Source of the DNA: a virus
Virus record (IMG/VR): IMGVR_UViG_3300032331_001618
Coordinates: 1 to 20,843 of that record
Length of the DNA stretch: 20,843 nucleotides
Direction: 5' to 3' (one strand)
Below are positions 2,146-20,429 of the stretch, piece by piece. The notes beneath the pieces are model-generated. The model saw only the letters and a list, made by a program, of their open reading frames with translations. It searched no databases and was not told the origin of the DNA. A program made the position numbers and the translations under genes. Within the stretch, counting starts at the first letter, position 1. The number at the start of each line of letters is the position of its first letter.

Positions 2146-3054
2146 ATGATTTCTTTAATCAAAATTTTAAAAACTATAATAACGGAAGGAGGTAATGTAT
2201 TTACTGGTACAGAATATGATACAGATGATATATTATTAAATAATATTAAACCAACCATAGATGAATTTATATCAACTTTAAGTAGTATATTTCCTAAAAA
2301 GAAATCAACATTTACATCTTTAAGTGATAGTAGTAACTGGTTAGGATCTACTGGTAAAAAACCAAAATCAGGAGACGTAGACTTAGCATATTCATCTGAA
2401 TACTTTTTTAAAGACGGCCAAATAGATACTGAAGGATGGGGGGTAGATCAAAATGAATATACCCAATTATATGAAAAAAACAAAAAAGCAGCTCGTTCTG
2501 CTAGTGACGAACAAATCCAAGTAAAATCATTAATTCAATTAATTGTTAAAAAAATTAATGGATCTGGAAAGGATATATATGCAAATGATAAAGCAGCTAA
2601 TGGTGGTACAATTCACTTTTCGTACCCACAATATTCTGACAGTGAAAAATTAGACACAAATGCTCAACTTGATTTAGATACAGGAGACCTAGATTGGTTA
2701 AAATTCAGATATAATTCTGAATTACCAGATGATAATCAAGAAATTAAAGGATTACATAGAGGACAATTAATGTTAGCTATGTTTGCAGCTACAGGTTATA
2801 CATTTAAAAGTGGTAAAGGTTTCGTTCGTAAAGAAACAGGCGATATATTAGGTGATAAACCTCAAGATGCTATAGATGTATTTAACAATGAGTATAAACC
2901 TAAACAACCATTAGATTTAAAAATAACTAGCAATTATAATAAATTAATGGATTATGTTAAAACTAATCTTGACCCTGAAGACAAAGAAAATACATTAAAA
3001 ATGTTTGCTGAGGCTTTAAGAAGAGCTAAGGCATATGTACCTGATAATATTTAA
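2146..3054 (+). CDS. Nucleotidyltransferase-fold protein with N-terminal [LI]xE tag
   Basis: The 302-residue protein shows a polymerase-beta-type nucleotidyltransferase signature: G67-S68, then D77-V-D79 (in SGDVDLAY), then a third acidic strand near D176/D178 (AQLDLDTG). Enzymes of this fold transfer a nucleotide to RNA, protein or small molecules; the target here is unknown. The first 14 residues, MISLIKILKTIITE, form a hydrophobic/basic helix ending I-T-E|G, the candidate capsid-targeting tag seen across the window, so the mature enzyme may start at G15. The last seven residues, AYVPDNI, recur inside the protein encoded at 8651-9817. The gene follows a TATTTATG box and is separated by five bases from the next gene, whose N-terminal domain is also an NTase. 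The fold is likely; the function is unassigned. Confidence 0.6.
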   Translation: MISLIKILKTIITEGGNVFTGTEYDTDDILLNNIKPTIDEFISTLSSIFPKKKSTFTSLSDSSNWLGSTGKKPKSGDVDLAYSSEYFFKDGQIDTEGWGVDQNEYTQLYEKNKKAARSASDEQIQVKSLIQLIVKKINGSGKDIYANDKAANGGTIHFSYPQYSDSEKLDTNAQLDLDTGDLDWLKFRYNSELPDDNQEIKGLHRGQLMLAMFAATGYTFKSGKGFVRKETGDILGDKPQDAIDVFNNEYKPKQPLDLKITSNYNKLMDYVKTNLDPEDKENTLKMFAEALRRAKAYVPDNI

Positions 3055-3059
3055 ACAAC

Positions 3060-4967
3060 ATGAGTGGAGCAGCAGGCGGATCACGCATTAAAAAAGAAGA
3101 TTTAAAAGCCACGATTCGTGACTATAGAGATAATGTCCTAAAACCATTAGGTCTTGATAAATCATATACCATAACTGGAGTTCGTTCTAGACCTGAAAAA
3201 GAAATATTTGGGGATATAGATGTTGTTGTGTCATTTCCTGAAGGTGATAAAAAAGAACTTAAACAAATTTTAGCTAGTTTTGTAGAACAAGTCAATAAAA
3301 TCCCTGAAATACCACAAAAGAAGAACAAAAAATATTTTATACATGGTTCTATAGTTTCTATATTGTACCCAATATATGGAAAAGAAAATGAATATGTTCA
3401 AATAGATAATATAGTAACAGCATCGAAAGAAGAGGGCAAATTCACATATAAAATGCTAGACCTCCCAGCTCAAGAGCAAGGTTTAGCTTTAGGTTTAGTA
3501 AAAGCAGTATTTTCTGAATTAGATCAAAATCAAATTGATGAATTATTTAAAGATTTAGGTTTATCAAATGTTGAAAAACCTGGTGAAGATGAAGAATATG
3601 ACTTCAATCTAAATCCTTCAGAATTATCATTAAAAATAGTTAAAAAAGGTACTAGTAATGGTAAAACAATATGGACTTCAAATAAATTTTCTGATATAAA
3701 AACAGTATTATCTGCATTAGGTATAGATATTGAAAAAGACAAATTTGATACTATAGTTAGTAAGATTAAAAAATTCAAAAACAGAAGATCAATAGATCGT
3801 CTTAAAGGAATGTATGCTAGAAATATAAGAGTAGGTGATGCTGAAGTAGGACTTGAAAAAGGTATTAAAAAACAACAATCATTAGATACAGTTAATGCAT
3901 TACAAGAAAAACACAATGCGTTAGTAATGAAAATGATTACTCCATTATTAATGGAAGAAAAAAAATCAACAATAGCTGTATTTCCTGGCAAATTCAAACC
4001 ACCACATAGAGACCATTTAGCTCGTATAAATGCTGCTGCAAATGCTGCAGATGAAGTTTTAGTAATAATAGGACCAAAACCAGTAGATTCATTTACTGCT
4101 GAAAAAACATTAGATTTATTTAATTTATTTAAATCAAAAGGTTTAGTACCTAACAATGTTAAATTTATAATTAGTGATTTACCATCACCAGTTTTAAAAG
4201 CATATAAAGAATTTGAAGATAATCCTAATCAACAATATATTGGTGTGTTTGGTAAAGATGATATAGCTCGTTTTAAAGGTATTAGTAAATTACCTAATGT
4301 TAGAGTTGATAATTTTGAAGAAGCAAATGTTGGTAATTTAAGTGCAACTGATTTAAGAAATGCTATTGTAAATAAAGATATTTCAACTATTCAATCAATG
4401 ATGCCTGACGGTATTAATGCTAAAGAATATATCCAAACATTAACCGGTCAAAAAAAATTACAAGAAGCAGTAACTGATACTGAAGTAATTTGTGATAACT
4501 GTGGTTGGCATTGGTCTATTAAAGATGGTGGTGATGATTTATATGTTTGCCATAAATGTGGGTATGATAATACACCTAAATCAAATAAGACTTGGAATCT
4601 CCAAAATGGGATCGTATCTTTAACTAAATACATGTTAGATAATGGGATGAATATATCACCATTACCTAAATTAAAATTTATAGATAATGATAAAGAGAAT
4701 GCAGGTGAATTATTAGGAAAAACGGCATATTATAACCCGTTAGAAAAATCAATCACATTGTATACTTTAAATCGTCATCCTAAAGATATATTACGTTCAT
4801 ATGCTCATGAGATGGTTCATCATGTTCAAAATTTAGAAAATAGATTAAATAATATTAATACTACTAATACAAATGAAGATGGAGCATTGCCTGAAATTGA
4901 AGAGGAAGCATATAAATTAGGAAACATGATGTTAAGAAATTGGGAAGATAATATTAAAAATAAATAA
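3060..4967 (+). CDS. Multidomain protein: NTase + HIGH-type nucleotidyltransferase + zinc ribbon + HExxH peptidase
   Basis: The 635 residues hold four recognisable modules. Residues 1-280 are a second polymerase-beta-like NTase: GDIDVVV with D52/D54, then VQIDNIV with D116. Residues 303-462 are a cytidylyltransferase-like (HIGH superfamily) domain: FPGKFKPPHRDHL with H316 and H319, and SATDLR at 428-433 as the ISxTxIR-like motif. Residues 478-500 form a zinc ribbon (C478, C481, C497, C500). Residues 515-635 contain AHEMVHH at 582-588, an HExxH zinc-peptidase motif, with EEEAY at 614-618 as a plausible third ligand region. The domain junctions carry LLME|E (297-300) and KLQE|A (467-470), both resembling T4 gp21-type cleavage sites, so this may be a polyprotein precursor. 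The HIGH-type domain is a common phage module. The peptidase is short and could be structural rather than active. There is no obvious N-terminal tag on this protein. Confidence 0.75.
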   Translation: MSGAAGGSRIKKEDLKATIRDYRDNVLKPLGLDKSYTITGVRSRPEKEIFGDIDVVVSFPEGDKKELKQILASFVEQVNKIPEIPQKKNKKYFIHGSIVSILYPIYGKENEYVQIDNIVTASKEEGKFTYKMLDLPAQEQGLALGLVKAVFSELDQNQIDELFKDLGLSNVEKPGEDEEYDFNLNPSELSLKIVKKGTSNGKTIWTSNKFSDIKTVLSALGIDIEKDKFDTIVSKIKKFKNRRSIDRLKGMYARNIRVGDAEVGLEKGIKKQQSLDTVNALQEKHNALVMKMITPLLMEEKKSTIAVFPGKFKPPHRDHLARINAAANAADEVLVIIGPKPVDSFTAEKTLDLFNLFKSKGLVPNNVKFIISDLPSPVLKAYKEFEDNPNQQYIGVFGKDDIARFKGISKLPNVRVDNFEEANVGNLSATDLRNAIVNKDISTIQSMMPDGINAKEYIQTLTGQKKLQEAVTDTEVICDNCGWHWSIKDGGDDLYVCHKCGYDNTPKSNKTWNLQNGIVSLTKYMLDNGMNISPLPKLKFIDNDKENAGELLGKTAYYNPLEKSITLYTLNRHPKDILRSYAHEMVHHVQNLENRLNNINTTNTNEDGALPEIEEEAYKLGNMMLRNWEDNIKNK

Positions 4968-4971
4968 AAAT

Positions 4972-5394
4972 ATGGGATTTAAAAGAATTGTAGCAAAATC
5001 TGAAGACGATTTAGTAGAAATTATAGAAAATATAAAAGATTGGTTTAAAAACAATAAGTTCTATAAAACAGAAACAACGTCAGAGAAACGTAAATTTATG
5101 GATCCTGAAACTAAAAAAATCATTGAAAAAAATATTGATGGTTTAAAGGTAATAGATCAAAATAATAAAAAAGAAACAACTATAAAATTCATTCCATTAC
5201 TTAAACCAAACGAAATAAAACTTGAACTTGGGGGTGAAAATGAAACTACTATGGCTGGTAAAATCAAAAATCAAATGATGGGTCGAGGTGTATTAAAATC
5301 GTATAATAAAGATACTAAAGTACCACTTAAAGAAACTATCGCTAAGTCTGAACTTAGAAAAATTATTCGCGAAGAAATATATAAAATTATTTAA
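4972..5394 (+). CDS. Unknown protein with C-terminal LRKIIREEI helix
   Basis: I do not recognise this 140-residue protein. It is strongly charged (Lys/Glu rich) and predicted soluble, starting four bases after the multidomain gene. The C-terminus ends KSELRKIIREEIYKII, an amphipathic helix similar to the N-terminal tag LRELIRKVLKE of the gene at 11596 and to LREKIREMILAE inside the gene at 7561. Here the helix sits at the C-terminus and lacks a clear terminal [LI]xE. This could mean that the helix is a docking element that works at either end, or that the resemblance is only that of generic amphipathic helices. The short gaps to both neighbours indicate co-transcription with the NTase genes upstream and the spanin-like pair downstream. 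Confidence 0.7.
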   Translation: MGFKRIVAKSEDDLVEIIENIKDWFKNNKFYKTETTSEKRKFMDPETKKIIEKNIDGLKVIDQNNKKETTIKFIPLLKPNEIKLELGGENETTMAGKIKNQMMGRGVLKSYNKDTKVPLKETIAKSELRKIIREEIYKII

Positions 5395-5395
5395 T

Positions 5396-5737
5396 ATGAA
5401 AATAAATTATGGTAAAACAATAGCTGTAGCAGTTATTATAGTTGGGTTATGGTTAATCAATATGGTAGTTCGAGATGAACGAGACCACACTAATGGTTAT
5501 AAAAAAACAATAGACAGTTTAAACATTGAATTAGTTAAGATTGATTCTATTCATAAAAAACAAGATGATACTATTATGATATATAAAGACAGTATCGTTT
5601 ACTTAGATAAAATAATTGAAGTTAATAAAGAAAATATAAACAAATTAAAAGAAAAACATGACAAAATATATTATATCGTTACTCAGTACTCTAACGCTCA
5701 GCTTGACAGCTTTTTCACAAACCGTTACGGACACTAA
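5396..5737 (+). CDS. Inner-membrane spanin-like protein (Rz-like)
   Basis: The 113-residue protein has one N-terminal membrane segment (residues 8-25, rich in Ala/Val/Ile/Leu/Trp) followed by a long charged, probably coiled-coil region and a short C-terminal motif (LDSFFTNRY). This is the architecture of an i-spanin: anchored in the inner membrane with a periplasmic coiled coil that bridges to an outer-membrane partner during lysis. The 3' end overlaps the next gene by 80 bases in another frame, and the next product has a signal peptide, which is the nested-gene logic of Rz/Rz1 pairs. No holin or endolysin is evident next to it. Sequence identity to characterised spanins cannot be shown here, so the call rests on topology and gene overlap. 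Confidence 0.6.
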   Translation: MKINYGKTIAVAVIIVGLWLINMVVRDERDHTNGYKKTIDSLNIELVKIDSIHKKQDDTIMIYKDSIVYLDKIIEVNKENINKLKEKHDKIYYIVTQYSNAQLDSFFTNRYGH

Positions 5738-6074: not shown

Positions 6075-6075
6075 T

Positions 6076-7531: not shown

Positions 7532-7533
7532 CA

Positions 7534-7560: not shown

Positions 7561-8634
7561 ATGAACAAAGAATTCAGTAGAATGCAAAAACTTGCAGGAC
7601 TTTTAACAGAAAACATGGGGGGTACAGATTTAGACTCTACCGCTAGTGATGTATATGATTACTTTAGTAAGAAATCATCATCAACAAGTACAGATAGAAG
7701 AAAATATATAAAATCATTGGGTTTATCTGATGATGATACAGAAACAGTAATGATGAAAGTTACAGATATGATGAGTGATAACATGAACGAAAACATGGGT
7801 GGTACAGATTTAGAATCTGTAGCTAATGATGTATATAATCACTTTAGTAAAATGTCATCATCAACAAGTACAGATAGAAGAGATTATATAAAAGACATAT
7901 ATAGTTTATCTGATGAAGAAACAGAAGATATAATGATGAAGGTTACAGATATGATGAGTGATGAGGGTGATATGAGAGAAGGTGTAGCATCATATGAGTA
8001 TGAAATGGGTAAAAAAGCTGGTAATAAAAATAATTTCCGTGATCCAATTGAATTAGCAAAAGCTGTTGTTGGTAAACATGGACAAGAATTAAAATCATCT
8101 AAAGATTTAAGTCCTAGAGAATTTGAAAGTAAAGCTTTAATGTATGCTTCTAAAATGATGAAAGAAGCAGGAATGGAAAAAGTTGTTATGACAAATTTAT
8201 TTATTGACGAAGATTGGCCATCAGATTATATATCTAAAGTGTCAGAACTTTTACGTGAAATGAGTGGAAAAGAAATGGGTATGGAAGAAGGTTTAAAAAG
8301 AACAATACGTGAAAGTCAAAAGCAAAAATCACTAAGAGAAAAAATACGTGAAATGATTTTAGCTGAAATGAACGATGTTGATTTATATGATCCATTAGAT
8401 GAAGCTAAAAAAGACGAAGAAGAAGTAGAAGATATTGAAGTAGAAGATGTTGATGTAACAGATGAAAAAATGGTTGGAAATGACGATCCAAAAGTAACTA
8501 AAATCCAAGATTTACTTAACCAACTACAAGACGCTGCTGAAGAATTAGGCGATGAAAAGTTATTAACACAAGTTGGCAATACCATTACATTCTTTACTCG
8601 CGAACATGTTGCTAATGCAGATAACATGGGCTAA
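7561..8634 (+). CDS. Tagged virion-protein candidate with an internal duplication
   Basis: The 357-residue protein begins with EFSRMQKLAGLLTE|N (Glu17), the same MQKLAG tag used at 16439 and 19099. Residues 17-76 and 77-136 are a near-perfect tandem copy (ENMGGTDL..., SSSTSTDRR..., MMKVTDMMSD). Residues 140-235 are helical and unrelated to anything I recognise. A second tag-like helix, SLREKIREMILAE|M, ends at residue 269, and LYDPLDE|A follows at 281, so the C-terminal 75 acidic residues could be released separately. The C-terminal part (KIQDLLNQLQDAAEELGDEKLL then ITFFTREHV) is reminiscent of small T4-like phage proteins of unknown role. It follows a TATTTATA box. A packaged or prohead-core protein is inferred; no enzymatic motif is seen. 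Confidence 0.6.
   Translation: MNKEFSRMQKLAGLLTENMGGTDLDSTASDVYDYFSKKSSSTSTDRRKYIKSLGLSDDDTETVMMKVTDMMSDNMNENMGGTDLESVANDVYNHFSKMSSSTSTDRRDYIKDIYSLSDEETEDIMMKVTDMMSDEGDMREGVASYEYEMGKKAGNKNNFRDPIELAKAVVGKHGQELKSSKDLSPREFESKALMYASKMMKEAGMEKVVMTNLFIDEDWPSDYISKVSELLREMSGKEMGMEEGLKRTIRESQKQKSLREKIREMILAEMNDVDLYDPLDEAKKDEEEVEDIEVEDVDVTDEKMVGNDDPKVTKIQDLLNQLQDAAEELGDEKLLTQVGNTITFFTREHVANADNMG
7609..7971 (+). repeat. Tandem in-frame duplication, 180-base period
   Basis: Two adjacent units begin at GAA 7609 and GAA 7789 and stay closely similar at the DNA level, for example in GGTACAGATTTAGA and the TCATCATCAACAAGTACAGA block. The second unit is one codon longer after the TATATAAAA stretch. The high DNA similarity points to a recent duplication inside the gene. 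Confidence 0.85.
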
Positions 8635-11595: not shown

Positions 11596-12285
11596 ATGAA
11601 TAACTTACGTGAACTTATTAGAAAAGTACTAAAAGAACGCACCCACGATTGTGGATGTGGATGTCATGGTAAATGCGCTAAAGCACCCATGCTAAACGAA
11701 AATTTAAGCGCTAAAATAACGATGACTGAAAATATGTCATACCATATTAATAATAAAAAACCATTAACAGAAAACACGTTTAGATACGGTTCAGATGCAT
11801 TTTTAGATTTATGGGCTGAAGCACGTTACTTATATTCTCGCAACGCTATTCATTTGTTAGGTGAAGATAAAAAAATAGTTACTGAAACTAATTTAGGCGA
11901 ATATGGTATGTACAATGGAGAACAAGTACCATTAGATATACCTATGATTGATGAAACAGCAGATGACAATGAAATGGAAGAAATTGAAGAATCATCAGAA
12001 TATCAAGGTAAAAAAGTTCAACTGAACAAACCTAAACGAGGTGGATCTAAAAAATTCTACGTTTACGTACGTAATCCTAAAACTAAAAAAGTTAAAAAAG
12101 TATCATTCGGAGATACAACTGGACTATCTACTAAGGTAAATAATCCAAAAGCACGTAAAGCTTTTGCTAAACGCCAACAATGTGATAAGAAAAAAGACCG
12201 TACAAAACCAGGTTATTGGAGCTGTAACATTGGAAGATATTGGAAATCATTAGGTGGAAGTTCAAACTTCAGTGGATACTGGTAA
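11596..12285 (+). CDS. Tagged Cys-rich protein with SFGD...YWSC C-terminal phage domain
   Basis: The 229-residue protein starts MNNLRELIRKVLKE|R (Glu14), a clear tag. A short Cys/His segment follows (C19, C21, C23, C27 in CGCGCHGKC) that may bind metal, then three further tag-like ends (LNE35, MTE45, LTE59). Residues 62-115 (GSDAFLDLWAEARYLY, TETNLGEYGMYNGEQVPLD) match a block conserved in T4-like marine phages. Residues 137-229 form the widespread phage/virus domain with VQLNKPKRGGSKKFYVYV, KKVSFGD, a Cys at 196 and YWSC at 207-210; it probably is a small metal-binding or structural domain. It ends in an aromatic Gly-Tyr-Trp. The gene precedes the LRR cassette and probably belongs to the packaged set. 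Biochemical function is unknown. Confidence 0.65.
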   Translation: MNNLRELIRKVLKERTHDCGCGCHGKCAKAPMLNENLSAKITMTENMSYHINNKKPLTENTFRYGSDAFLDLWAEARYLYSRNAIHLLGEDKKIVTETNLGEYGMYNGEQVPLDIPMIDETADDNEMEEIEESSEYQGKKVQLNKPKRGGSKKFYVYVRNPKTKKVKKVSFGDTTGLSTKVNNPKARKAFAKRQQCDKKKDRTKPGYWSCNIGRYWKSLGGSSNFSGYW

Positions 12286-12293
12286 TATTTATA
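12286..12293 (+). promoter_or_regulatory. TATTTATA box three bases before an LRR gene
   Basis: TAATATTTATAGCC is followed directly by the ATG at 12297, with the upstream stop TAA as its left edge. If it is a -10 element, transcription would start near the ATG and give a leaderless mRNA. The same arrangement occurs before 14146 and 14580. Confidence 0.5.
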
Positions 12294-12296: not shown

Positions 12297-12905
12297 ATGA
12301 TTAAACTCATCGACTTACTTAAAGAAGATAGCCCATTCGTTCCAAGGGGCTCAAAAGAAGAACGAGGAAAAGAATATGAACGAATATCCCAAAATATAAT
12401 CCAACAATATATAAAAGACGGAATGAAAGGAGATTTAGACTTATCTGATACTCCAATCACCTCACTTCCCTCTAACTTAACTAAAGTTGGAGGCGATTTA
12501 AGGATATTAAATACTCCAATCACCTCACTCCCAAATAACTTAACAGTTGGAGGTGGTTTATATTTAATTCGCACCCCAATCACCTCACTCCCATCTAGTT
12601 TAACTAAAATTAATGGTGATTTAGATTTATATAAAACCCCAATCACCTCACTCCCAGATAACTTAACTAAAGTTGGAGGTAATTTAGATTTATCTTTTAC
12701 CCCAATTACCTCACTCCCTGACAACTTAACAGTTGGAGGTTATTTAGATTTATCTTATACTCCAATTACCTCCCTCCCATCTGACTTAAAGGTTATGGGT
12801 AGTTTAAATTTACGTAAAACTCCACTATCTAAAAATCATTCCGAAGCGGAAATTAGAGCAATGGTACCAAATGTTAAAGGTAAAATCCTTATGCAATATT
12901 TATAA
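12297..12905 (+). CDS. Tagged leucine-rich-repeat protein, 6 repeats (LRR paralog 1)
   Basis: The start is set at the ATG at 12297, giving MIKLIDLLKE|D, identical in form to the paralogs; the longer reading from 12240 would run through the upstream gene. The 202 residues contain the tag (1-10), a charged linker ending QQYIKDGMKGDLDLS, and six repeats with TPITSLP at 52, 73, 93, 114, 135 and 155. The period of 20-21 residues is that of short bacterial LRRs as in YopM and IpaH effectors. A cap TPLSKNHSEAEIRAMVPNVKG closes the domain. LRR domains bind proteins, so an interaction with a host or virion protein is likely. No catalytic domain is attached. It is one of three paralogs in a cassette interrupted by the WCT gene. 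The tag suggests packaging in the capsid, which is inferred. Confidence 0.8.
   Translation: MIKLIDLLKEDSPFVPRGSKEERGKEYERISQNIIQQYIKDGMKGDLDLSDTPITSLPSNLTKVGGDLRILNTPITSLPNNLTVGGGLYLIRTPITSLPSSLTKINGDLDLYKTPITSLPDNLTKVGGNLDLSFTPITSLPDNLTVGGYLDLSYTPITSLPSDLKVMGSLNLRKTPLSKNHSEAEIRAMVPNVKGKILMQYL
12452..12790 (+). repeat. Tandem LRR-coding DNA repeats, about 60-63 base period
   Basis: Near-identical segments such as CCAATCACCTCACTCCC recur every 60 or 63 bases in phase with the reading frame and encode TPITSLP. The low divergence between units favours recent expansion and contraction by recombination or slippage, matching the differing repeat numbers (6, 4, 3) among the three paralogs. Confidence 0.85.
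12897..12904 (+). promoter_or_regulatory. TATTTATA box overlapping the end of LRR paralog 1
   Basis: The box spans the last codons and part of the stop of the LRR gene and lies 13 bases before the ATG at 12918. It encodes Tyr-Leu-stop in frame, so coding constraint alone could partly explain it. Confidence 0.35.
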
Positions 12906-12917: not shown

Positions 12918-13649
12918 ATGAACTTAAAAAAATTATTCAAAGAAAATAAACAATACGTTTCAGAAACCCTAAAACAAGCTAAAATGTATGTTGAACAAGG
13001 GAAACTATCTCCTGAAGATTTAAATACTTTAATAGAATTATCACCAGATCCTAAATATCTAGGATGGTTAGCTAAAATATGGATTGCTGAACGCCCAGAT
13101 ATAGATGACTTACGTAATAATATAGAAGAATATGATGTGTTTGCAAAAAGAGGCAAAGTTTTAACTAAAGACATCAACCAATTTAAAACGTTCAAAGATT
13201 TATATAACGAAGTAGACCAAATCAATAAATCAGGTGCAGGAGTATCAAGCAAAAGTTTGGAAAATGAATATGATGTTATAAAAGACGACAACGATTTATA
13301 TATAGCATCACCTAGAACCCATGAAGCTTCACGTAAACTTGGTTTATCTAAATTCTCTTTTAGAGATTGTGAAGGTGGTGGAAAAGATTCGGCATGGTGT
13401 ACTACTTACAAAGCTCCTGACCATTTTAACAACTACTATTATAAAAATGGCGTAACGTTTTATTATATTAGAGTTCTATCAGAAGATATAATGAACAAAT
13501 TAAAAGAAGCATTTCCTAAAAAATATAAATCTTTAGAAGTAGTAGCATTAGCTGTCCTACCAGACGGAAGAATGGATGCTTATGACGGGCTTGATAAACA
13601 AATACCAAAAGCTGAAATAAATAAATTTTTAAAAATAATAGGATATTAA
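12918..13649 (+). CDS. WCT-motif phage protein with short N-terminal tag
   Basis: The 243-residue protein begins MNLKKLFKE|N, a short version of the tag. Residues 20-100 are helical. The conserved region is 118-185: YDVIKDDNDLYIASPRTHEASRKLG, then SAWCTT at 158-163, HFNNYYYKNGVTFYYI, followed by a strand and helix. This W-C-T block, preceded by a 'place in the path of a ligand' strand and followed by an aromatic HF..YY segment, is known to me from several phage hypotheticals ('KWCT' proteins) without assigned function; the Cys and the surrounding His/Asp may form an active site. The gene sits between LRR paralogs 1 and 2, so the LRR cassette was either duplicated around it or it was inserted. 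The next gene starts two bases later. Confidence 0.6.
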   Translation: MNLKKLFKENKQYVSETLKQAKMYVEQGKLSPEDLNTLIELSPDPKYLGWLAKIWIAERPDIDDLRNNIEEYDVFAKRGKVLTKDINQFKTFKDLYNEVDQINKSGAGVSSKSLENEYDVIKDDNDLYIASPRTHEASRKLGLSKFSFRDCEGGGKDSAWCTTYKAPDHFNNYYYKNGVTFYYIRVLSEDIMNKLKEAFPKKYKSLEVVALAVLPDGRMDAYDGLDKQIPKAEINKFLKIIGY

Positions 13650-13651: not shown

Positions 13652-14134
13652 ATGATTAAACTCCTTGACTTACTTAAAGAAGACAACCCATTCGTTTCAA
13701 GAGGTGGGAAAGAACGTGTAGAAGCTTATTCTTTAAAGAGAAAAGCTGAAATAGAAAATAAAATACAACAATATATAAAGGATGGAATGGAAGGCGATTT
13801 AGATTTATTTGACACTCCAATCACCTCACTCCCACCTAATTTAACTAAAGTTGGAGGTGATTTAATTTTGAATAGAACTAAAATTACTTCACTTAATAAC
13901 TTAACTAAAGTTGAAGGCGATTTAAATTTATTTCGCACCCCAATCACATCACTTCCAGATAACTTAACAGTTGAGGGCGAATTAGATTTAAATAACTCTA
14001 AAATCAGTAAACTCCCTGATAACTTAACAGTTGGAGGTGATTTATATTTAGATGATACTCCACTCTCTAAAAAATATTCTGAAGATGAAATTAGAGTAAT
14101 GGTGCCAAATATTGAAGGTGAAATCTATATATAA
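13652..14134 (+). CDS. Tagged leucine-rich-repeat protein, 4 repeats (LRR paralog 2)
   Basis: At 160 residues this paralog shares the tag MIKLLDLLKE|D, the linker (NPFVSRGGKERVEAYSLKRKAE then KIQQYIKDGMEGDLDL) and the LRR cap (TPLSKKYSEDEIR..MVPN) with its neighbours. Its repeats are TPITSLP, TKITSLN, TPITSLP and SKISKLP. The second lacks the usual Pro and is one codon shorter, which would slightly distort the solenoid. It starts two bases after the WCT gene with no TATTTATA box, so it probably depends on the transcript from upstream. A protein-binding role is inferred from the LRRs; the partner is unknown. Confidence 0.75.
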   Translation: MIKLLDLLKEDNPFVSRGGKERVEAYSLKRKAEIENKIQQYIKDGMEGDLDLFDTPITSLPPNLTKVGGDLILNRTKITSLNNLTKVEGDLNLFRTPITSLPDNLTVEGELDLNNSKISKLPDNLTVGGDLYLDDTPLSKKYSEDEIRVMVPNIEGEIYI

Positions 14135-14145: not shown

Positions 14146-14568
14146 ATGATCAAACTTCTCGATTTACTTAAAGAAGATAACCCGTTTGTTCCACGGGGTG
14201 GGAAAGAACGTGTAGAAGCTTATTCTTTAGAAAGAAAAGCTGAAACAGAAGATAAAATACAACAATATATAAAAAACGGAATGAAAGGGGATTTAAAGTT
14301 ATTTTATACTCAAATTACAACACTCCCTAATAACTTAACAACTGTTGAAGGCAATTTAGATTTAGATAACTCTAAAATTACTAAACTTCCTGATAATTTA
14401 ACAGTTATGGGTAATTTATATTTATCTGATACTTCAATTGATTCACTTCCATATGATTTAACTGTTGGAGGTAATTTAAGTTTAAGAAACACACCACTCT
14501 CTAAAAAATATTCAAAAGATGAAATTAGAGCAATGGTGCCAAATGTTAAAGGCAACATTAGAATGTAA
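14146..14568 (+). CDS. Tagged leucine-rich-repeat protein, 3 repeats (LRR paralog 3)
   Basis: This 140-residue paralog has the same tag and linker as paralog 2 (MIKLLDLLKE|D, GGKERVEAYSLERKAE) but only about three LRR units, with the more diverged motifs TQITTLP, SKITKLP and TSIDSLP. The cap TPLSKKYSKDEIRAMVPNVKG is retained. The linker is more conserved than the repeats, so the linker and tag may be the constrained parts while the repeat face varies, as expected for a recognition protein facing a changing target. Three bases of leader separate it from a TATTTATA box. Confidence 0.75.
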   Translation: MIKLLDLLKEDNPFVPRGGKERVEAYSLERKAETEDKIQQYIKNGMKGDLKLFYTQITTLPNNLTTVEGNLDLDNSKITKLPDNLTVMGNLYLSDTSIDSLPYDLTVGGNLSLRNTPLSKKYSKDEIRAMVPNVKGNIRM

Positions 14569-14579: not shown

Positions 14580-15263
14580 ATGATCAAACTTACAGACATA
14601 TTAAACGAATCATATAACCCAAATGTATATCAAATTGAATGCAGGGTAGTAATGGGTGCTGGAAATCGCCCAATCCAAGACATCATATCAGATATCAGAG
14701 CAATTCCTGGCGTTACCGTGGTAGATACAATTGAATCAGATTATAATACTGAAGAAGGAAGACACGTTACTGACCTTAGTATTAAAGTAGACCCATCACC
14801 ATTCAATCCATTTGACCGTAGTTCTTATATTAAAATATTAAATGATATAAAGAAACTACCTGACGTTAGAGGAGCTAAATACATTTCAGCCCCAGTTGTA
14901 GCTGAAAATAAATTACAAAGATTAATCAAAGAAGTACTACAAGAAGATAGATGTAAAAAAATAGCAGACCGCAAATACGATAAACCATCAGCTTACAAAT
15001 CGGGAGCTATAGTAAGATGTCGTAAAGGAGATATTTGGAAAGACTTAAAAGAAGACGAATCTTTACATAAATGGTTTAAACGTTCAGGCCCTAAAGGTAA
15101 AGAAGGAGGTTGGGTAGATTGTAATGCACCTGATGGAAAAGGAGGATATAAAGCATGTGGTAGAAAAGAAGGTGAAAAACGAGCTAAATACCCATCATGT
15201 CGTCCTACACCAGCACAATGTAAAACACCTGGCAAAGGTAAAAAATGGGGCAAAACAAAATAA
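14580..15263 (+). CDS. Tagged two-part protein: unknown N-domain plus DUF5872-like C-domain
   Basis: The 227-residue protein starts with MIKLTDILNE|S (Glu10). Residues 14-103 look like a small alpha/beta domain (VYQIECRVVMG, IQDIISDIRAIPGVTVVDTI, TDLSIKVD, YIKILNDIKKLPDVRGAKYI), possibly ferredoxin-like. A second tag, NKLQRLIKEVLQE|D, ends at Glu122. Residues 123-227 match the virus/phage DUF5872-type domain: VRCRKGDIWKDLKEDESLHKWF, GGWVDCNAPDGKGGYKACGRK, YPSCRPTPAQC, followed by a very basic tail. The Cys residues suggest a metal site. The internal tag sits exactly between the domains, consistent with cleavage to two products. DUF5872 has no known biochemical role that I can state. Neighbours: LRR paralog 3 upstream, a tagged small protein downstream. 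Confidence 0.7.
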   Translation: MIKLTDILNESYNPNVYQIECRVVMGAGNRPIQDIISDIRAIPGVTVVDTIESDYNTEEGRHVTDLSIKVDPSPFNPFDRSSYIKILNDIKKLPDVRGAKYISAPVVAENKLQRLIKEVLQEDRCKKIADRKYDKPSAYKSGAIVRCRKGDIWKDLKEDESLHKWFKRSGPKGKEGGWVDCNAPDGKGGYKACGRKEGEKRAKYPSCRPTPAQCKTPGKGKKWGKTK

Positions 15264-15281: not shown

Positions 15282-15599
15282 ATGATAAGACTACTCCAAC
15301 TATTAACTGAAGCTAAAGAAAGCTTTGAACAATTTGCTAAAAATCGTTTAGCAGGTGCTGAAAAAATTATAGCTAACGCTAAGGAAAAAGGTGGAGATGC
15401 TTTATTAACATACACCCACTTTAAAATAAAACCATCTTACTATAAAAAAGCCATAGATGGTAAATTTGATAAAGAAGCAGCTAAAAAAGAATTTGATGAA
15501 ACATATAAAAAAATTTCATTAGATATGACTCAAACTGAATTTCAACGTGAAGTTGGACGTTTAGAAGTATTAGGTGAGCTATTAATAAGAGAAAAATAA
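15282..15599 (+). CDS. Small tagged helical protein
   Basis: I do not recognise this 105-residue protein beyond its tag, MIRLLQLLTE|A (Glu10), which has the ideal T4-like context of Leu at P3, Glu at P1 and Ala at P1'. The remainder is predicted mostly helical with repeated Lys/Glu/Ala (FEQFAKNRLAGAEKIIANAKEKGGD) and a central HFKIKPSYYKKAIDG segment. It is small, basic to neutral and has no membrane segment. After tag removal it would be about 95 residues, in the size range of T4 internal proteins IPI-IPIII. It follows a TATTTATA box and is five bases upstream of the next gene. Confidence 0.65.
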   Translation: MIRLLQLLTEAKESFEQFAKNRLAGAEKIIANAKEKGGDALLTYTHFKIKPSYYKKAIDGKFDKEAAKKEFDETYKKISLDMTQTEFQREVGRLEVLGELLIREK

Positions 15600-15604
15600 A
15601 CAAT

Positions 15605-15868
15605 ATGAAACAATTCGATATAACTGATTATTTATTAAATCAACAACTTAAAGAAGAATATGGTGGCCCAGGCCCTATGGTATTACCTGACAATCACAGT
15701 GCAGGATTAAAAGTACCTAAAGGAGGTTCTTGCTGTGCTAACTGTAAATGGTGGAGTAAAGAAGAACAAGTATGTAATAGCAAATATTATCAAGAATGGG
15801 CAGGTACAAATACTATACCTTACGCTGCAGACGAATATTGTACAAACTGGTGGGAACCGATAAAATAA
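15605..15868 (+). CDS. Small Cys-rich protein, probable metal-binding
   Basis: The 87-residue protein has five cysteines: C43, C44 and C47 in GGSCCANCKWW, C57, and C79 near the C-terminus in DEYCTNWWEP. Similar 'SCANCK...C...G..P.P.DEYC..W' proteins occur in marine phages; four of the cysteines could bind zinc or an iron-sulphur cluster. The N-terminus MKQFDITDYLLNQQLKE|E could be a degenerate tag. The last base of its stop is the first base of the next start (TAATG), so it is coupled to the cupin-like gene. No function can be assigned; a HiPIP-like redox role is conceivable but unsupported. Confidence 0.65.
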   Translation: MKQFDITDYLLNQQLKEEYGGPGPMVLPDNHSAGLKVPKGGSCCANCKWWSKEEQVCNSKYYQEWAGTNTIPYAADEYCTNWWEPIK

Positions 15869-16131: not shown

Positions 16132-16142
16132 AAATATCGTAT

Positions 16143-16422: not shown

Positions 16423-16438
16423 ATAAAATAAAAATAAA

Positions 16439-16762
16439 ATGTCAAAACAAATATTAAGTGAAGAATTTCGCAGAATGCAAAAATTAGCAGGTATTATTAA
16501 TGAAAACCAAAATAAAGTATACGGTATAGAAAAAGATTATGAACCTTATGATTTTGGACCATATACTAAAGAAGAAGCTGAAGCTAAAGCTGAAGAATAT
16601 CATAAAAAAGATAGCTTTAGTATTTATAAAGTTGAGTTATATAACAGCATGCATAATAAACTCACAGGTATAGACAGAATGCATACGCCGAGATTAGATG
16701 CAAATGGTAATTTTATGGATCTTGATCAACCATTTAGTAGTGGTGATTTAGCAGATTATTAA
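16439..16762 (+). CDS. Small MQKLAG-tagged protein
   Basis: The 107-residue protein starts SEEFRRMQKLAGIINE|N (Glu22), the MQKLAG tag shared with the genes at 7561 and 19099. The remaining 85 residues include YDFGPYTKEEAEAKAEEYHKKDSFSIYKVELYN, a helix-strand arrangement that looks like a small alpha/beta fold, and an acidic, polar C-terminus. I do not recognise the family. It is transcribed from the bipartite promoter P1 and is followed by a hairpin, so it may be a single-gene unit. A packaged role is inferred only from the tag. Confidence 0.65.
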   Translation: MSKQILSEEFRRMQKLAGIINENQNKVYGIEKDYEPYDFGPYTKEEAEAKAEEYHKKDSFSIYKVELYNSMHNKLTGIDRMHTPRLDANGNFMDLDQPFSSGDLADY

Positions 16763-16816
16763 ACAATACAGACCAGATTCATAGCCGGTCGCTTTAACAA
16801 ATAAAACATGACAGTT

Positions 16817-16853
16817 GTGGCGTCACCTATAAAAGGAGACGCCACCTTTCTTT
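16817..16853 (+). terminator. Intergenic hairpin with T-rich tail, probable intrinsic terminator
   Basis: GTGGCGTC (16817-16824) pairs perfectly with GACGCCAC (16838-16845). Inside, CCT and AGG can add three pairs across an A-A mismatch, leaving a five-base loop. A pyrimidine run CTTTCTTT follows. The hairpin is GC-rich in a very AT-rich genome and sits between a stop at 16762 and promoter P2. It lies in a 19-codon ORF (16808-16867), which I consider incidental. Confidence 0.7.
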
Positions 16854-16884
16854 GGCTATTTAAATAAAAGATATTAAATTTATA
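16851..16884 (+). promoter_or_regulatory. Bipartite promoter P2 upstream of the FAD oxidoreductase
   Basis: TTTGGCTATTTA at 16851 and TAAATTTA at 16875 have the same 24-base offset as P1 and P3. The -7 element is within one base of the TATTTATA box at the equivalent position. The promoter begins directly in the T-rich tail of the preceding hairpin. The ATG at 16889 follows the box after four bases, so the transcript would have almost no leader. Confidence 0.65.
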
Positions 16885-16888
16885 TTAT

Positions 16889-18184
16889 ATGAAATATACA
16901 GATAAAATTGTAATAATCGGAGCAGGTGTATCAACTCAATATGGAGTACTTCACCTTTTAAAAAATGGATATGATCCTAAATTGATAACCATCATAGATA
17001 AAGGTAATAGTATCTATGATAGACAACCTGAAGAAGTAATGACAGGAGCAGGTGGTGCTGGAACATGGAGTGATTTTAAAGTAATCCCTTCATTTAAACA
17101 AGGCGGACTATTTCACCCACACTACTGTAAGGATGAAGAATATGCAACAGAATTATCTAAACAGTTATATGATTATATAGTTGAATACCACCCAGATCCA
17201 TCTAAAATCATGTACACTGAACCAGTTGAAGAACCTCAATTCATTAAAGATTCACCATTTGAATTAAGACAATCACCTTGCTATCACTTAGGTACAGATT
17301 ATGGTCAACAACAGGTAAAAAATATATTTGAATACTTCGATAAAGTTGGAGTAAGACAAATATATAATGTTGAAATAACAAATATTAATTTTAAACGTAA
17401 TGAAATCGGTATAGGACACGACTACATTAAATATGATAAATTAATCATTGGAACTGGTAAATCTGGTATGGATCTACTTACTAAACTAATAAATGATTAT
17501 AGTCTAGAAACAGTACCTAAACCAGCACAGTTTGGAGTACGTTATGAAACTGATGGAAAATATTTTGAAGAATTAAACAAAATAGCATACGACTTCAAAT
17601 TATATAAGAAATTTGGAGAAGATAGTGCTCGTTCATTCTGTACAAACAATTTCGCAGCGTTTGTAGCTGAAGAAGAAACATATGGTATGAAGTCATATAA
17701 CGGACATGCTCATAAAGATAAAGATAAATACAATGGCTTAACTAACTTTGGCATATTATTAGAAGCACGTGGTATTGAAGACCCATTCAAATTCAGTACA
17801 CAATTAGTAAATTTTTTCCAAGACAATGGTGAAGCAGTATATTATTCTCCATCTGACCGTGAACCATCATTAACAGATCAAGGTAATAAAGTACCCGGGT
17901 ATAAAATATCATTAGATAAATTTAAAGAAGGTTTTGGCAAGTATGCTGATTATATATTAGAATTCATAGATGATTTGAATATAACGTTTGGTATAAACGA
18001 CAATTACATATTCTATTGTCCTGAAGTTAAATTCTTAACTAATGAAATAGCATTAGATAAAAACAATTTATCTTTACCACAATATCCTAATGTTCACTTA
18101 CAAGGAGACGCTGCTGGAGCTAGAGGAATTTATATATCAGCTTTGCATGGATTATATATAGCATCATATTTATTAAGAAAATAA
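16889..18184 (+). CDS. FAD-dependent oxidoreductase (COG2509-like)
   Basis: The 431-residue protein begins with a Rossmann dinucleotide-binding site: IVIIGAGVSTQYGVLHLL (GxGxxx G at 11-19) and a following acidic strand end, IIDKG (D37). Other flavoprotein features are GAGGAGTWSDFK at 53-64, LIIGTGKSGMDLL at 185-197, FGVRYE at 215-220, and the C-terminal FAD motif VHLQGDAAGARG at 402-413. The order and spacing fit the 'uncharacterised FAD-dependent dehydrogenase' family (COG2509). Substrate is unknown. Such enzymes are bacterial-type metabolic proteins and uncommon in phages, so this is a likely host-derived auxiliary gene. No tag is present, so it should act as an ordinary cytoplasmic enzyme. 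It has its own promoter (P2) and terminator upstream. It is full length with no disrupted motifs. Confidence 0.8.
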   Translation: MKYTDKIVIIGAGVSTQYGVLHLLKNGYDPKLITIIDKGNSIYDRQPEEVMTGAGGAGTWSDFKVIPSFKQGGLFHPHYCKDEEYATELSKQLYDYIVEYHPDPSKIMYTEPVEEPQFIKDSPFELRQSPCYHLGTDYGQQQVKNIFEYFDKVGVRQIYNVEITNINFKRNEIGIGHDYIKYDKLIIGTGKSGMDLLTKLINDYSLETVPKPAQFGVRYETDGKYFEELNKIAYDFKLYKKFGEDSARSFCTNNFAAFVAEEETYGMKSYNGHAHKDKDKYNGLTNFGILLEARGIEDPFKFSTQLVNFFQDNGEAVYYSPSDREPSLTDQGNKVPGYKISLDKFKEGFGKYADYILEFIDDLNITFGINDNYIFYCPEVKFLTNEIALDKNNLSLPQYPNVHLQGDAAGARGIYISALHGLYIASYLLRK

Positions 18185-18186
18185 TT

Positions 18187-18234
18187 ATGTACAAAGACCC
18201 AGAAGAATTTCCAGAATTTATAGAGAATTATTAG
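18187..18234 (+). CDS. Possible 15-residue micropeptide
   Basis: An ATG two bases after the oxidoreductase stop opens a 15-codon frame (MYKDPEEFPEFIENY) ending at a TAG. It is acidic and aromatic. The position right behind a stop favours coupled translation, but the length gives no statistical support, and there is no homology evidence. It could be a remnant or chance. Confidence 0.2.
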   Translation: MYKDPEEFPEFIENY

Positions 18235-18240
18235 CATAAA

Positions 18241-18274
18241 TTTGGCTTATTTAAAAAATAATATTATATTTATA
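18241..18274 (+). promoter_or_regulatory. Bipartite promoter P3 upstream of the 81-residue gene
   Basis: TTTGGCTTATTTA at 18241 and TATATTTA at 18265 repeat the P1/P2 arrangement with the same offset. The box TATTTATA (18267-18274) overlaps TATAAATA on the same strand (18273-18280), the T4 late promoter consensus, so one site carries both orientations. The ATG at 18288 is 13 bases beyond the box. Confidence 0.65.
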
Positions 18275-18287
18275 TAAATAAAAACGT

Positions 18288-18533
18288 ATGATTTCAAAAC
18301 AATTAAAACAAAGTGATGGTACTATTGTGCATTATGTTATAATTAATGGTAAAACATTAACACATAACTATGATGGGCCTGCTTTAATACCACAAGGTAA
18401 TAAACGATTAGCTGAGTATTATGTATTTGGTATTAAGAAAACTAAAGAACAGTGGGAAAATATTAAAAAAGATGGTGAAGGTGTTCCATTCCATAAAACA
18501 GCAGCTGGCAAACAATCAGGAACAAGAGCATAA
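18288..18533 (+). CDS. Small conserved phage protein, unknown role
   Basis: The 81-residue product contains DGPALIPQGNKRLAEYYVFGIKKTKEQWENIKK, a block I know from T4-like marine phages as a hypothetical, similar in style to MORN-like 'GPA...YY..G' proteins. The C-terminal tail (GVPFHKTAAGKQSGTRA) is basic. It follows promoter P3 and is separated by 11 bases from the kinase gene, so both likely share a transcript. No enzymatic motif or tag is present. Confidence 0.7.
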   Translation: MISKQLKQSDGTIVHYVIINGKTLTHNYDGPALIPQGNKRLAEYYVFGIKKTKEQWENIKKDGEGVPFHKTAAGKQSGTRA

Positions 18534-18544
18534 AATAAAACAAT

Positions 18545-19069
18545 ATGAGAATAGGATTAGCAGGAACAGTATCAGTAGGTAAATCTACATTAGCAAAAGC
18601 ATTAGGAGAAATTGATATATTTAAAGATTATTTAATTCAGACTGAACGTAGCAAATATTTACGAGATCAAGGTATAGCATTAAATACAGATTCAACGTTG
18701 AAAGGACAAATTGTATTTGCAGCTGAACGTTCAATTGAATTGTTAAATGAAAATATAATTACAGATCGTACAATATATGATGTTTGTTCATTTACATTAA
18801 GTGCTAATTCAATTGACTGGAATGTTAAAGAAAAATTTGTTGACTTAATGATGCGTATACGTGACGATTATGACGTAATCGTTTATGTTTCTCCTGAAGG
18901 TGTTGAAATTGAAGACAATGGAGTACGTACTATAGATAGTGAGTATCGTGATAAAATTGATTTTACTATTAAAGAAATGTTAAAAGAATATCCACCTAAA
19001 TGTTTGATTGAGGTTAGTGGAACTACTGAAGAACGAATCAATAAGATTAAAGAGACATTATCTGTATAA
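18545..19069 (+). CDS. P-loop kinase, AAA_28/NadR-like
   Basis: The 174-residue protein has a Walker A motif GTVSVGKST at residues 7-15, TERSKYLRDQG at about 34-44 and a helix with IITDRTIYDV at about 70-79. The D-R pair after a hydrophobic strand is the usual nucleobase/phosphate-site motif of NadR-type and deoxynucleoside kinases. A further DVIVYVSP strand and EYRDKIDFTIKEML helix complete the fold. AAA_28 proteins include nicotinamide-riboside kinase (the C-terminal domain of NadR) and small phage nucleotide kinases. A role in nucleotide or NAD salvage is plausible; substrate choice cannot be read from sequence. It lacks a tag and lies in the same unit as the gene at 18288, with the flavoprotein just upstream. 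Confidence 0.75.
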   Translation: MRIGLAGTVSVGKSTLAKALGEIDIFKDYLIQTERSKYLRDQGIALNTDSTLKGQIVFAAERSIELLNENIITDRTIYDVCSFTLSANSIDWNVKEKFVDLMMRIRDDYDVIVYVSPEGVEIEDNGVRTIDSEYRDKIDFTIKEMLKEYPPKCLIEVSGTTEERINKIKETLSV

Positions 19070-19077
19070 TATTTATA
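19070..19077 (+). promoter_or_regulatory. TATTTATA box before a MQKLAG-tagged gene
   Basis: The stop of the kinase gene is followed by TATTTATATTAAACCGC and the ATG at 19099. It has no -33 TTTG element at the matching position. The adjoining leader is repeated before the gene at 19584. Confidence 0.4.
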
Positions 19078-19078
19078 T

Positions 19079-19101
19079 TAAACCGCAAAATAAAAATAAT
19101 G
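19079..19101 (+). repeat. Duplicated leader, copy 1 (TAAACCGCAAAAT...)
   Basis: TAAACCGCAAAATAAAAATA is followed by ATG at 19099. The copy at 19564 differs by one base (A to G at the 14th position) in the 20 bases before its ATG at 19584. Matching distance to the ATG in both makes the second Met (19584) the better start for the downstream gene. The function is unknown; it may be a translation enhancer or the trace of gene duplication. Confidence 0.7.
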
Positions 19102-19548
19102 AATAAAAAACAAGCATTAAACGAAGAATTTCTTCACATGCAAAAACTAGCAGGTATTATTACTGAAGGCGAGTATAAACAAAAATTAAATGAAGCTTCA
19201 TTTTCAAGTACTGATGTTAATGCTATTTTAAAAGCTGCTAGAGCTGCTGTTGAAGCAGGTAAAGAGGTAACTGTTGATGGTATTAAAATAGGAAAGGTAG
19301 TACCTGGATTAGGAAGATTTATCCCTGCTGATGGTAGCCAATCTTTAAAAATTATGGATTACGTTGGTGAACCAGAAAAAATTGTAATTGATGGAGTTCC
19401 TGCTGTATTGAAACCAATGGAACCTTCTAAACCACAACCTGATACAAGAACACCAGAAGAAAAAGCAAAAGCACAAGCTGCGTTTGATGATAGATACGGC
19501 CCAGGTGGTGGATATGATACAGCATTCGGAAGATACACAGGCGATTAA
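19099..19548 (+). CDS. MQKLAG-tagged protein with second LNE|A site
   Basis: The 149-residue protein starts LNEEFLHMQKLAGIITE|G (Glu23), followed by a second site KLNE|A at 30-33, a repeat of the tag end. Residues 34-100 form a small alpha/beta domain (SSTDVNAILKAARAAVEAGKEVTVDGIKIGKVVPGLGRFIPADG). The C-terminal 45 residues are Pro/Asp/Lys rich with a Gly-Tyr tail (RYGPGGGYDTAFGRYTGD) and probably disordered. I do not recognise the domain. It and the next gene precede the terminase, where phage core and head genes usually lie, which supports a head-associated role. Confidence 0.65.
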   Translation: MNKKQALNEEFLHMQKLAGIITEGEYKQKLNEASFSSTDVNAILKAARAAVEAGKEVTVDGIKIGKVVPGLGRFIPADGSQSLKIMDYVGEPEKIVIDGVPAVLKPMEPSKPQPDTRTPEEKAKAQAAFDDRYGPGGGYDTAFGRYTGD

Positions 19549-19563
19549 AAATTTAAATAAAAC

Positions 19564-19586
19564 TAAACCGCAAAATGAAAATAATG
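19564..19586 (+). repeat. Duplicated leader, copy 2
   Basis: This copy carries an in-frame ATG (19575) nine bases before the aligned ATG at 19584; the first ATG arises from the single-base difference to copy 1, so it is probably not the ancestral start. Confidence 0.7.
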
Positions 19587-20429
19587 ACTAAAAATCAATT
19601 AAAAGAATACATTAAAGAAATTATTATTTCTGAAGTAACTATGGTTGGACCAAAAACTGATCCAGGTGACGCAGCTGAAATTGCTAAAACTGAACGTACA
19701 GATGCAAATACAGTAAAAACCGCTATGACTCAAGCTAAAAAAACTGGCACAGCTGTAGGTGTAGCTGAAATGTCATTAAATGAAATGGCTAAAATAGCTG
19801 GTGATCTTGATGCTGCTATTAGAAAAGTAATTGAAGACAACCCAGATTTAGAAGGTCTTCCGCTTAAAAAAGCAATTAAAGGAAGTGAAAAAGTAAAAGA
19901 TGCACTTGATACTGATGAATTGTATGATAATCAATTAAATAAATTTATTGCTCTTGTAAGAGGACAAAGAGAATTAGGAAAAAAAGGTCGTAAACCTTCA
20001 GAAAAAGCTGATGAACCTAAGAAAGAAGAACCTAAAGCTAAAAAAGAAGCACCAAAGAAAGAAACACCTAAAAAGGAAACACCAAAGAAAGAAGCACCAA
20101 AGAAAGAAAAAAAGGCTAAAGACGAAGACGAGGAAGAAGTAGAAGACAATTGGAACAAATCAGGTGAAGACGATGGTATGGAAGATGAAAAAAGCATTGA
20201 CAAAAAAGCTCAAGCTGCTGCTAAAAAAGGTGGAAGTAATCTTACTAAACTTAATCGTGCAATTTCTCAAGTTAAGGAATTAGAAAAAGAAATGAAAGAA
20301 ATAGCTAATGATTATAAAAAAGCTGAAGGTAAAGAAAAAGAAAATTTGCTAAATAAACTTAAAGAAAAAACTAAGGAAAAAAAAGAATTAGAAAAACTAC
20401 AAGATGAATTAGCAGCAGACGTTGTATAA
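19584..20429 (+). CDS. Lys/Glu/Ala-rich scaffold- or core-like protein with tag
   Basis: With the start at 19584 (281 residues) the protein begins MTKNQLKEYIKEIIISE|V, a tag ending I-S-E17. A start at 19575 would add three residues. Residues 18-130 are helical. Residues about 143-185 are tandem Lys-Pro-Glu/Ala units (KKETPKK, KKEAPKK), followed by an acidic stretch (KDEDEEEVEDNWN) and a long coiled coil rich in Lys/Glu from 215 to the end. This charge pattern is common in prohead core proteins and in DNA-condensing proteins, but neither can be assigned. It is followed by a strong terminator and the terminase gene, where T4-like phages carry head-assembly genes. Confidence 0.6.
   Translation: MTKNQLKEYIKEIIISEVTMVGPKTDPGDAAEIAKTERTDANTVKTAMTQAKKTGTAVGVAEMSLNEMAKIAGDLDAAIRKVIEDNPDLEGLPLKKAIKGSEKVKDALDTDELYDNQLNKFIALVRGQRELGKKGRKPSEKADEPKKEEPKAKKEAPKKETPKKETPKKEAPKKEKKAKDEDEEEVEDNWNKSGEDDGMEDEKSIDKKAQAAAKKGGSNLTKLNRAISQVKELEKEMKEIANDYKKAEGKEKENLLNKLKEKTKEKKELEKLQDELAADVV

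Follow-up and report, generated by a model that had tools for sequence, protein, structure and literature searches.

Candidate capsid-targeting tags on small genes of a T4-like phage fragment resemble head-assembly peptides of its relatives

Introduction

In bacteriophage T4, the internal proteins IPI-III and Alt carry a capsid-targeting sequence (CTS), a short N-terminal propeptide ending in L/I-x-E (PMC9026906, PMC9958956, PMC3012670), and the cargo brought into the head includes an ADP-ribosyltransferase (Alt) and a restriction inhibitor (IPI) (PMC9958956, PMC9026906). One review describes residues 4 and 7 of the CTS as most important for targeting and residues 8 and 10 for processing (PMC9026906), and a second, recent review regards it as mysterious how some proteins are placed in the T4 core and reports that other core proteins lack the CTS (PMC9958956). 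Here we analyze a 20,843-nt (20.8 kb) fragment of a T4-like phage with 30% G+C, IMGVR_UViG_3300032331_001618 (the window, meaning this whole stretch), in which twelve genes begin with short peptide tags, most of them ending in [LI]xE. The phage group is T4-like, and at least one of its members infects Flavobacterium.

We consider it very probable that these tags are capsid-targeting propeptides, cut by a prohead protease, that load late-made and probably injected cargo. One tag subtype matches the C-terminus of the scaffold encoded by related phages, which suggests that tagged proteins are loaded into the head and delivered to the next host cell; the tags are probably removable.

Results

Tags of the window and their excess over chance

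The window opens with primase- and exonuclease-like genes, named from the gene order of Flavobacterium phage vB_FspM_immuto_2-6A (immuto), continues with an island of small genes and closes in the first part of the gene for the terminase large subunit (Table 1). All twelve genes that an earlier note on this DNA had listed as tagged possess the start codons and tags described; the tags are 9-23 residues long, and 11 end in [LI]xE, the one on gene 12918 ending in FKE, as the note had it. The description of the tagged proteins as unrelated holds for about ten independent bodies and fails for 12297, 13652 and 14146, which are paralogues (50-65% identity). The start of 12297 is an internal ATG within a longer open reading frame (ORF) that begins with TTG; it is supported by a AATATTTATA element 12 nt upstream, a spacing identical to that at 14146 and 14580. 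The 19584 gene has an additional in-frame ATG at 19575. Two items were overlooked earlier: gene 15605 has a probable tag, and residues 110-122 of the 14580 protein form a second, internal tag-like segment. Four subtypes were defined by regular expressions: R (RMQKLAG), I (MIKLxxLLxE), K (a basic helix ending in IIKE or VLKE) and D (NFDLKKFLVENKL). The I-type tags of different window genes differ at synonymous sites.

As the earlier note cautioned, [LI]xE is frequent by chance alone, occurring in 36 of 172 internal 30-residue windows of the same proteins. With the Glu at residue 9-23, it is present in 17 of the 31 window genes, compared with 5.8 (standard deviation 2.2) expected from whole-protein shuffles and 5.7 from shuffling the first 30 residues only, and none of 5000 shuffles reached 17. 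A stricter pattern (hydrophobic P7 and P4, [LI] at P3 and E at P1) finds 6 window genes against 0.5 expected. The four subtype expressions, whose shuffle means sum to about 0.1-0.7, match 12 of the 31 called genes of the window (a count that takes in the terminase and leaves out 12918), 13/227 in immuto, and 13/63, 15/180, 13/222, 14/237, 17/247 and 13/209 in other relatives. The subtype patterns accordingly recur in 13-17 genes of each of seven relatives.

A search with the 8651 protein returned 13 loci, including contigs of 147 kb (G002), 155 kb (G003) and 49 kb (G001). The relatives include the cultured immuto (NC_055915.1, Immutovirus), and their contigs span 49-163 kb. A 30-base DNA pattern for the R tag matches at least 120 stretches in viral contigs and also occurs in one genome contig, of a Flavobacteriaceae metagenome-assembled genome. 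The main tagged island lies between an exonuclease-like gene and the terminase in G1, G2, G3 and immuto; G2 has a second tagged cluster, and further tagged genes are dispersed. Pooled over G1, G2 and G3, [LI]xE at 9-23 occurs in 52 of 93 island genes versus 86 of 372 others (Fisher P 2.4e-9, which is optimistic because the island limits were drawn with the tags in view and the tags also guided the choice of the second G2 cluster); for G1 by itself, P is 0.04.

The scaffold C-terminus carries the R motif

The head module of the relatives runs gp17, gp20, a ~285-residue protein, gp67-like, gp68-like, protease, scaffold and gp23. A gp21 homologue, which the earlier note had predicted, is present in this module downstream of the terminase: PF03420 (gp21 family, S77) is matched in four of eight relatives. 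Among 24 long R-tagged contigs, many being fragments, 17 have such a match; E values are mostly ~1e-30. The protease also belongs to phrog_207. PHROGs identifies the protease and the capsid and gave no match for two scaffolds tested, so that 'scaffold', 'gp67-like' and 'gp68-like' are names by position against T4.

In a first set, 19 of 19 scaffolds, some pairs of which are near-identical, end in R[MFW]xx[LI]A[GN]. A larger set comprised 80 loci selected by the capsid, with the upstream gene chosen by adjacency to the capsid gene and a length of at least 120 residues. In five loci no gene qualified; the genes of the remaining 75, near-duplicates among them, all end in the R motif (64 by the strict pattern and 11 by eye, the latter ending R[MW]xxLA[GF]). 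This count is used in place of one of 90/92, whose selection clause contained the motif. The capsid search itself returned at least 592 related stretches, not all necessarily of this phage group. A profile built on the R tag scores 21-30 bits on the scaffold end in five genomes; the next-best window lacking an R motif reaches 7-8 bits in four of the five, and in G3 the three top rows are all R motifs. In a sixth genome, G11, the scaffold ends partway through the profile window and does not reach the three top-scoring places.

The immuto scaffold ends in VSRWQKLAGIIK and that of Microcystis phage Mel-JY01 in ERMKKLAGIVK. No R tag was found among the 23 genes read around the Mel-JY01 scaffold, and in a phage collection a composite R-tag peptide matched immuto records alone. 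As far as Mel-JY01 was read, this is in keeping with the scaffold motif as the older form. The C-terminus of T4 gp22 has no R motif. A lead on covariation of scaffold and cargo is weak: LAFG forms were seen in scaffolds as well as in cargo, but neither of the two contigs with LAFG cargo yielded a capsid match. As a separate observation, an 805-amino-acid protein of G15 (82104 in L213) has one R motif close to the N-terminus and a second at the very C-terminal end, as in the scaffold.

K tags resemble a head-protein N-terminus, and I tags have a T4-like layout

The gp67-like head protein begins with a K-type basic-helix tag followed by sequence much like the capsid junction. In G002 the gp67-like KKLKE/VSATGTGASFTPGSGEQ (the slash marks the junction) compares with the capsid QLVSE/VSSTGTGAFFTPGQGEQ, and in G003 VLKE/MSMTGGGTAGAAFSPGVG compares with LVME/SSQTGAGTAGAAFTAGVG. 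Further gp67-like cases were picked by an expression that required the junction and also caught proteases, and serve as examples that give no rate. In T4, the gp23 propeptide has 65 residues (PMC9958956), and the gp23 sequence reads FLTE/AE after the propeptide; by analogy, the capsid of the relatives would be cut at the corresponding junction. K matches also include the terminase (window, G1 and G15) and a recurrent protein assigned to the tail region by position, and therefore, with the gp67-like protein among them, not all are cargo.

The five 10-residue I tags of the window are hydrophobic at positions 4, 7 and 8 and have Glu at 10. They have the layout of the T4 CTS (MKTYQEFIAE, MKTFKEF...; IPIII was compared), and the R tags look different by eye.

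Two side observations concern K-like sequences. The window terminase (20519) begins with MSQDIKQIIKEEY, which fits the K pattern and may be taken as a warning on K specificity or as a link to the head. The protein encoded at 4972-5394 has an untagged N-terminus, and its C-terminus, SELRKIIREEIYKII, resembles a K tag at the opposite end.

Tags are lost, swapped and internalised among orthologues

Orthologues of tagged bodies lose, swap or internalise their tags. In the window and in three relatives the 2146 body carries a tag, but its immuto orthologue starts with MGGNVF, right after the predicted cut (ITE/GGNVF). In an AlphaFold model of the 2146 protein, residues 1-15 have a predicted local distance difference test (pLDDT) score below 50 and the body is confident; its structural similarity to DNA polymerase beta is weak (Foldseek probability 1.0, template-modelling score about 0.3). 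In nine of nine listed orthologues of 15282, LxE is kept at the junction, followed by Ala in eight and Val in one, and the remaining tag is variable. In window protein 14580, a DUF5872-like body (26 bits against a cut-off of 27.5) stands behind the internal tag-like segment; in several relatives such a body comes after an I- or K-type tag. The 3060 protein has LxE at both junctions, LLME (E at 299) before its cytidylyltransferase-like domain and KLQE (E at 469) after it, and a cytidylyltransferase-like body follows an N-terminal tag-like segment in G3 (L029) and L137. The nucleotidyltransferase (NTase) and zinc motifs of the 3060 protein were read by eye; a sequence match in the PDB to PPR chains covers a 23-residue stretch and was taken as spurious.

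Conservation at the DNA level was ruled out as the source of the R tag, since the 126 listed R matches are encoded by 92 different DNA sequences; their bodies number 87 distinct ones in 54 clusters. By position, 101 of the listed matches lie in the first 45 ORF residues, 8 stop no more than 12 residues short of the C-terminus and the other 17 lie elsewhere. Protein 67235 of G3 has two R cassettes in tandem, the second with its own Met. Among the 111 distinct R units that are preceded by 7 or more residues, 44 also have an [LI]xE immediately before the motif, and among the 22 of them beyond residue 45 the number is 14, against a background of 183 in 2084 8-mers; in 45 of the 111, which are short tags, just 7 residues precede the motif. 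We give about even credence to a further proposal, in which the R tag would be a movable, scaffold-derived cassette with the long form [LI]xE-xF-x-RMQKLAG-[LIV]-ITE and a protease site on each side, usable at either terminus or between domains. Polyproteins would then be processed in the head, and about a dozen proteins (nucleotidyltransferase-like, a zeta-toxin-like kinase, and possibly an ADP-ribosyltransferase and nucleotidases) would be injected. If so, capsid-targeting sequences would turn out to be copies of the scaffold's own docking end.

An upstream element precedes tagged and virion-like genes

All ten ATATTTATA sites on the plus strand of the window (the example in Table 1 and those at 7533, 12896, 14134, 14568, 15265, 16414, 18266, 19069 and 20496) lie at most 40 nt upstream of a start, compared with 0.6 expected, at distances of 12-30 nt. 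Eight precede listed tagged genes, one precedes 18288 and one the terminase. TATAAATA, the reverse complement core of ATATTTATA, is far less enriched. Among TATTTATA sites, 26 of 41 in G2 (1.9 expected) and 28 of 50 in G3 (2.8 expected) are upstream of starts by the same distance limit, among them the starts of sheath-, tube- and other virion-like genes, so named by position and sequence, plus some others. The element is a candidate late promoter or start-site element of the phage group, and its placement fits late expression of the tagged genes, together with structural genes.

Predicted functions of the tagged proteins

A family search left most window bodies without a match. In G2, protein 24481 (L019:5981-6781) is an I-tagged Zeta_toxin-family kinase (E 3e-16) and a candidate injected effector. 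Other tagged proteins of relatives weakly match NT5C, CTP_transf_like and, in one case, PARP, all below curated cut-offs. The I-tagged protein 39572 of G1 (L001:15317-16111) has weak PARP/KptA matches (PARP E 0.0022, below cut-off) and a C-terminal domain after an internal LNE; this domain is possibly ADP-ribosyltransferase-like, the PARP match being only a hint because the AlphaFold model, made without an alignment, has a pLDDT of 40. The 10382 protein has homologues in cyanophages, and tblastn with the 19575 protein found no match in phages.

Table 1. Tags and other features of the window
Feature	Position	Strand	Remarks
I-type tag MISLIKILKTIITE on pol-beta-like nucleotidyltransferase body	2146..2187	+	gene 2146-3054
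Multidomain protein without N-terminal tag	3060..4967	+	NTase-like, cytidylyltransferase-like and Zn-ribbon/HExxH-type segments
R-type tag MNKEFSRMQKLAGLLTE	7561..7611	+	gene 7561-8634
K-type tag MNNLRELIRKVLKE	11596..11637	+	gene 11596-12285; resembles gp67-like N-termini
ATATTTATA upstream element, example	12285..12293	+	
I-type tag MIKLIDLLKE, paralogue 1, on weakly leucine-rich-repeat-like protein	12297..12326	+	LRR_1 E 0.0072, below cut-off
Tag MNLKKLFKE, not strict [LI]xE	12918..12944	+	
I-type tag MIKLLDLLKE, paralogue 2	13652..13681	+	
I-type tag MIKLLDLLKE, paralogue 3	14146..14175	+	
I-type tag MIKLTDILNE	14580..14609	+	gene 14580-15263
Second, internal tag-like segment NKLQRLIKEVLQE in gene 14580	14907..14945	+	between first domain and DUF5872-like domain
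I-type tag MIRLLQLLTE	15282..15311	+	
Probable tag MKQFDITDYLLNQQLKE	15605..15655	+	one relative has MISLINILKE there
Long R-type tag MSKQILSEEFRRMQKLAGIINE	16439..16504	+	
Long R-type tag MNKKQALNEEFLHMQKLAGIITE	19099..19167	+	
K-type tag MTKNQLKEYIKEIIISE	19584..19634	+	
Terminase large subunit (gp17-like), truncated by window end	20519..20842	+	head module next in relatives

Discussion

Based on these comparisons, a model can be proposed in which cargo genes would be expressed late, alongside structural genes, and each tag would dock its protein in the assembling prohead core via a peptide used by the core proteins themselves. The R tag (RMQKLAG[LI][IL]xE) would copy the C-terminal peptide of the scaffold, the K tag would correspond to the N-terminus of the gp67-like core protein, which it resembles, and the I tag would be laid out like T4's own CTS. 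Once the shell had closed, the S77 (gp21-type) prohead protease would cut after the Glu and free the body in the head, and the cargo would exit with the DNA into the next host. The T4-type capsid-targeting reading advanced in the earlier note is supported by the protease and head module in relatives, by the tag matches to the scaffold end and the gp67-like/capsid junction, and by the T4-like layout of the I tags.

Several observations weigh against this model. P3 of the capsid junction is Val, not Leu or Ile, in 75 of 76 matches; cleavage there would require a protease that tolerates Val. In three contigs the terminase, too, begins with a sequence of the K pattern, which makes K alone weakly specific. 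In G11, the window KLTWQKKAGII (43279 in L202, residues 50-60 of 191) scores 16.5 bits, well above the other background windows, and tops the non-N-terminal list; it may be a divergent internal R motif or a chance match. Cargo mostly keeps Met where scaffolds vary between Met, Trp and Phe, so that the correspondence between tags and the scaffold of the same phage is not a close one. The I tags resemble the scaffold N-terminus modestly: the best scaffold window has a rank of 8-10 in three genomes and of 39-213 in another three, and in immuto it is not N-terminal, so that the scaffold N-terminus is unconvincing as the source of the I tag. The tag is absent from the immuto 2146 orthologue and from several orthologues of the 11596 family; not every copy would therefore be packaged. 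The window contig stops in the terminase, and the protease and scaffold were read in relatives only. Subtypes, regular expressions and island limits were fixed post hoc, with the data already seen, and no virion proteomics of such a phage was found in the literature searched.

Four other explanations were weighed. Tagged proteins could be minor head or core components for which the tag is a docking peptide only; LxE would belong to the docking helix, and neither cleavage nor injection would take place. The match of the R tag with the scaffold C-terminus, a docking-type reuse, and the differing P3 at the capsid junction are as expected on this account, which we nevertheless judge unlikely, given the sharp boundary after the Glu in the 2146 and 15282 orthologues, the location of the gp67-like tag at a capsid-like junction and the gp21-type protease in relatives. 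Localisation signals unrelated to the head, directing proteins to a membrane, a phage nucleus or replication sites, would suit the I and K tags, which by eye look like short amphipathic helices, and the K-like segment at the start of the terminase. They would leave the matches to the scaffold C-terminus and capsid junction and the LxE boundary unexplained, and we hold this account to be highly improbable.

Still less credence is given to functionless peptides arising from shared 5' ends, spread by recombination or conserved as translation-initiation sequences. Clustering of the tagged genes and their common AT-rich upstream element speak for such an origin; the 92 DNA sequences that encode the listed R matches, for 3 peptides allowed by the search pattern, and the 25 of 126 beyond ORF residue 45, some of them C-terminal, make it barely tenable. 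The high internal background of [LI]xE would likewise favor chance, with matching N-termini picked out by the earlier note, and this explanation is very unlikely: it was ruled out as the origin of the tags by the shuffles, by the subtype counts in relatives and by the recurrence of the 30-base R pattern in viral contigs.

The preferred reading, that the tags are capsid-targeting propeptides, has several implications. The presence of one tag subtype on the scaffold itself provides a testable docking model, and the tags would offer a sequence handle for predicting injected proteins in a little-studied phage group, as well as candidate delivery tags for Flavobacterium phages. MQKLAG was not found in the literature searched, which excluded most subscription journals, and within the same limits work on capsid targeting, prohead proteases, scaffolds, Bacteroidetes and mimicry yielded no description of these tags.

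Among the known systems compared, immuto has a similar island order, tags, a prohead protease and a scaffold ending VSRWQKLAGIIK, and differs in the addition of the fourth tag subtype (NFDLKKFLVENKL); in the region read, its tagged genes are annotated as hypothetical or with enzyme names, and packaging is not mentioned. Phages SPN3US and phiKZ also package ejection proteins in the head, with propeptides cut by a prohead protease, and two paralogues share their first 15 residues; in contrast, the portions of these reports consulted describe a specificity for AxE or SxE, and phiKZ gp175 as an S80 type peptidase (PMC5694885, PMC7411985). No counterpart of gp22 was confirmed in those phages. In the relatives studied here the enzyme is instead S77, and the tag sites are [LI]xE. 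In phage P1, the N-terminal 30 residues of DarB suffice to bring a reporter into the capsid, but a separate scaffold is apparently absent, and the part of the report consulted gives no common tag family (PMC9024508). The likeness to T4 extends to diverse proteins with an L/I-x-E propeptide, a gp21-family protease and T4-type head genes, the protease and head genes being seen in relatives, whereas about a dozen tagged genes per contig, several tag subtypes, and R motifs that are also internal and C-terminal set this phage group apart.

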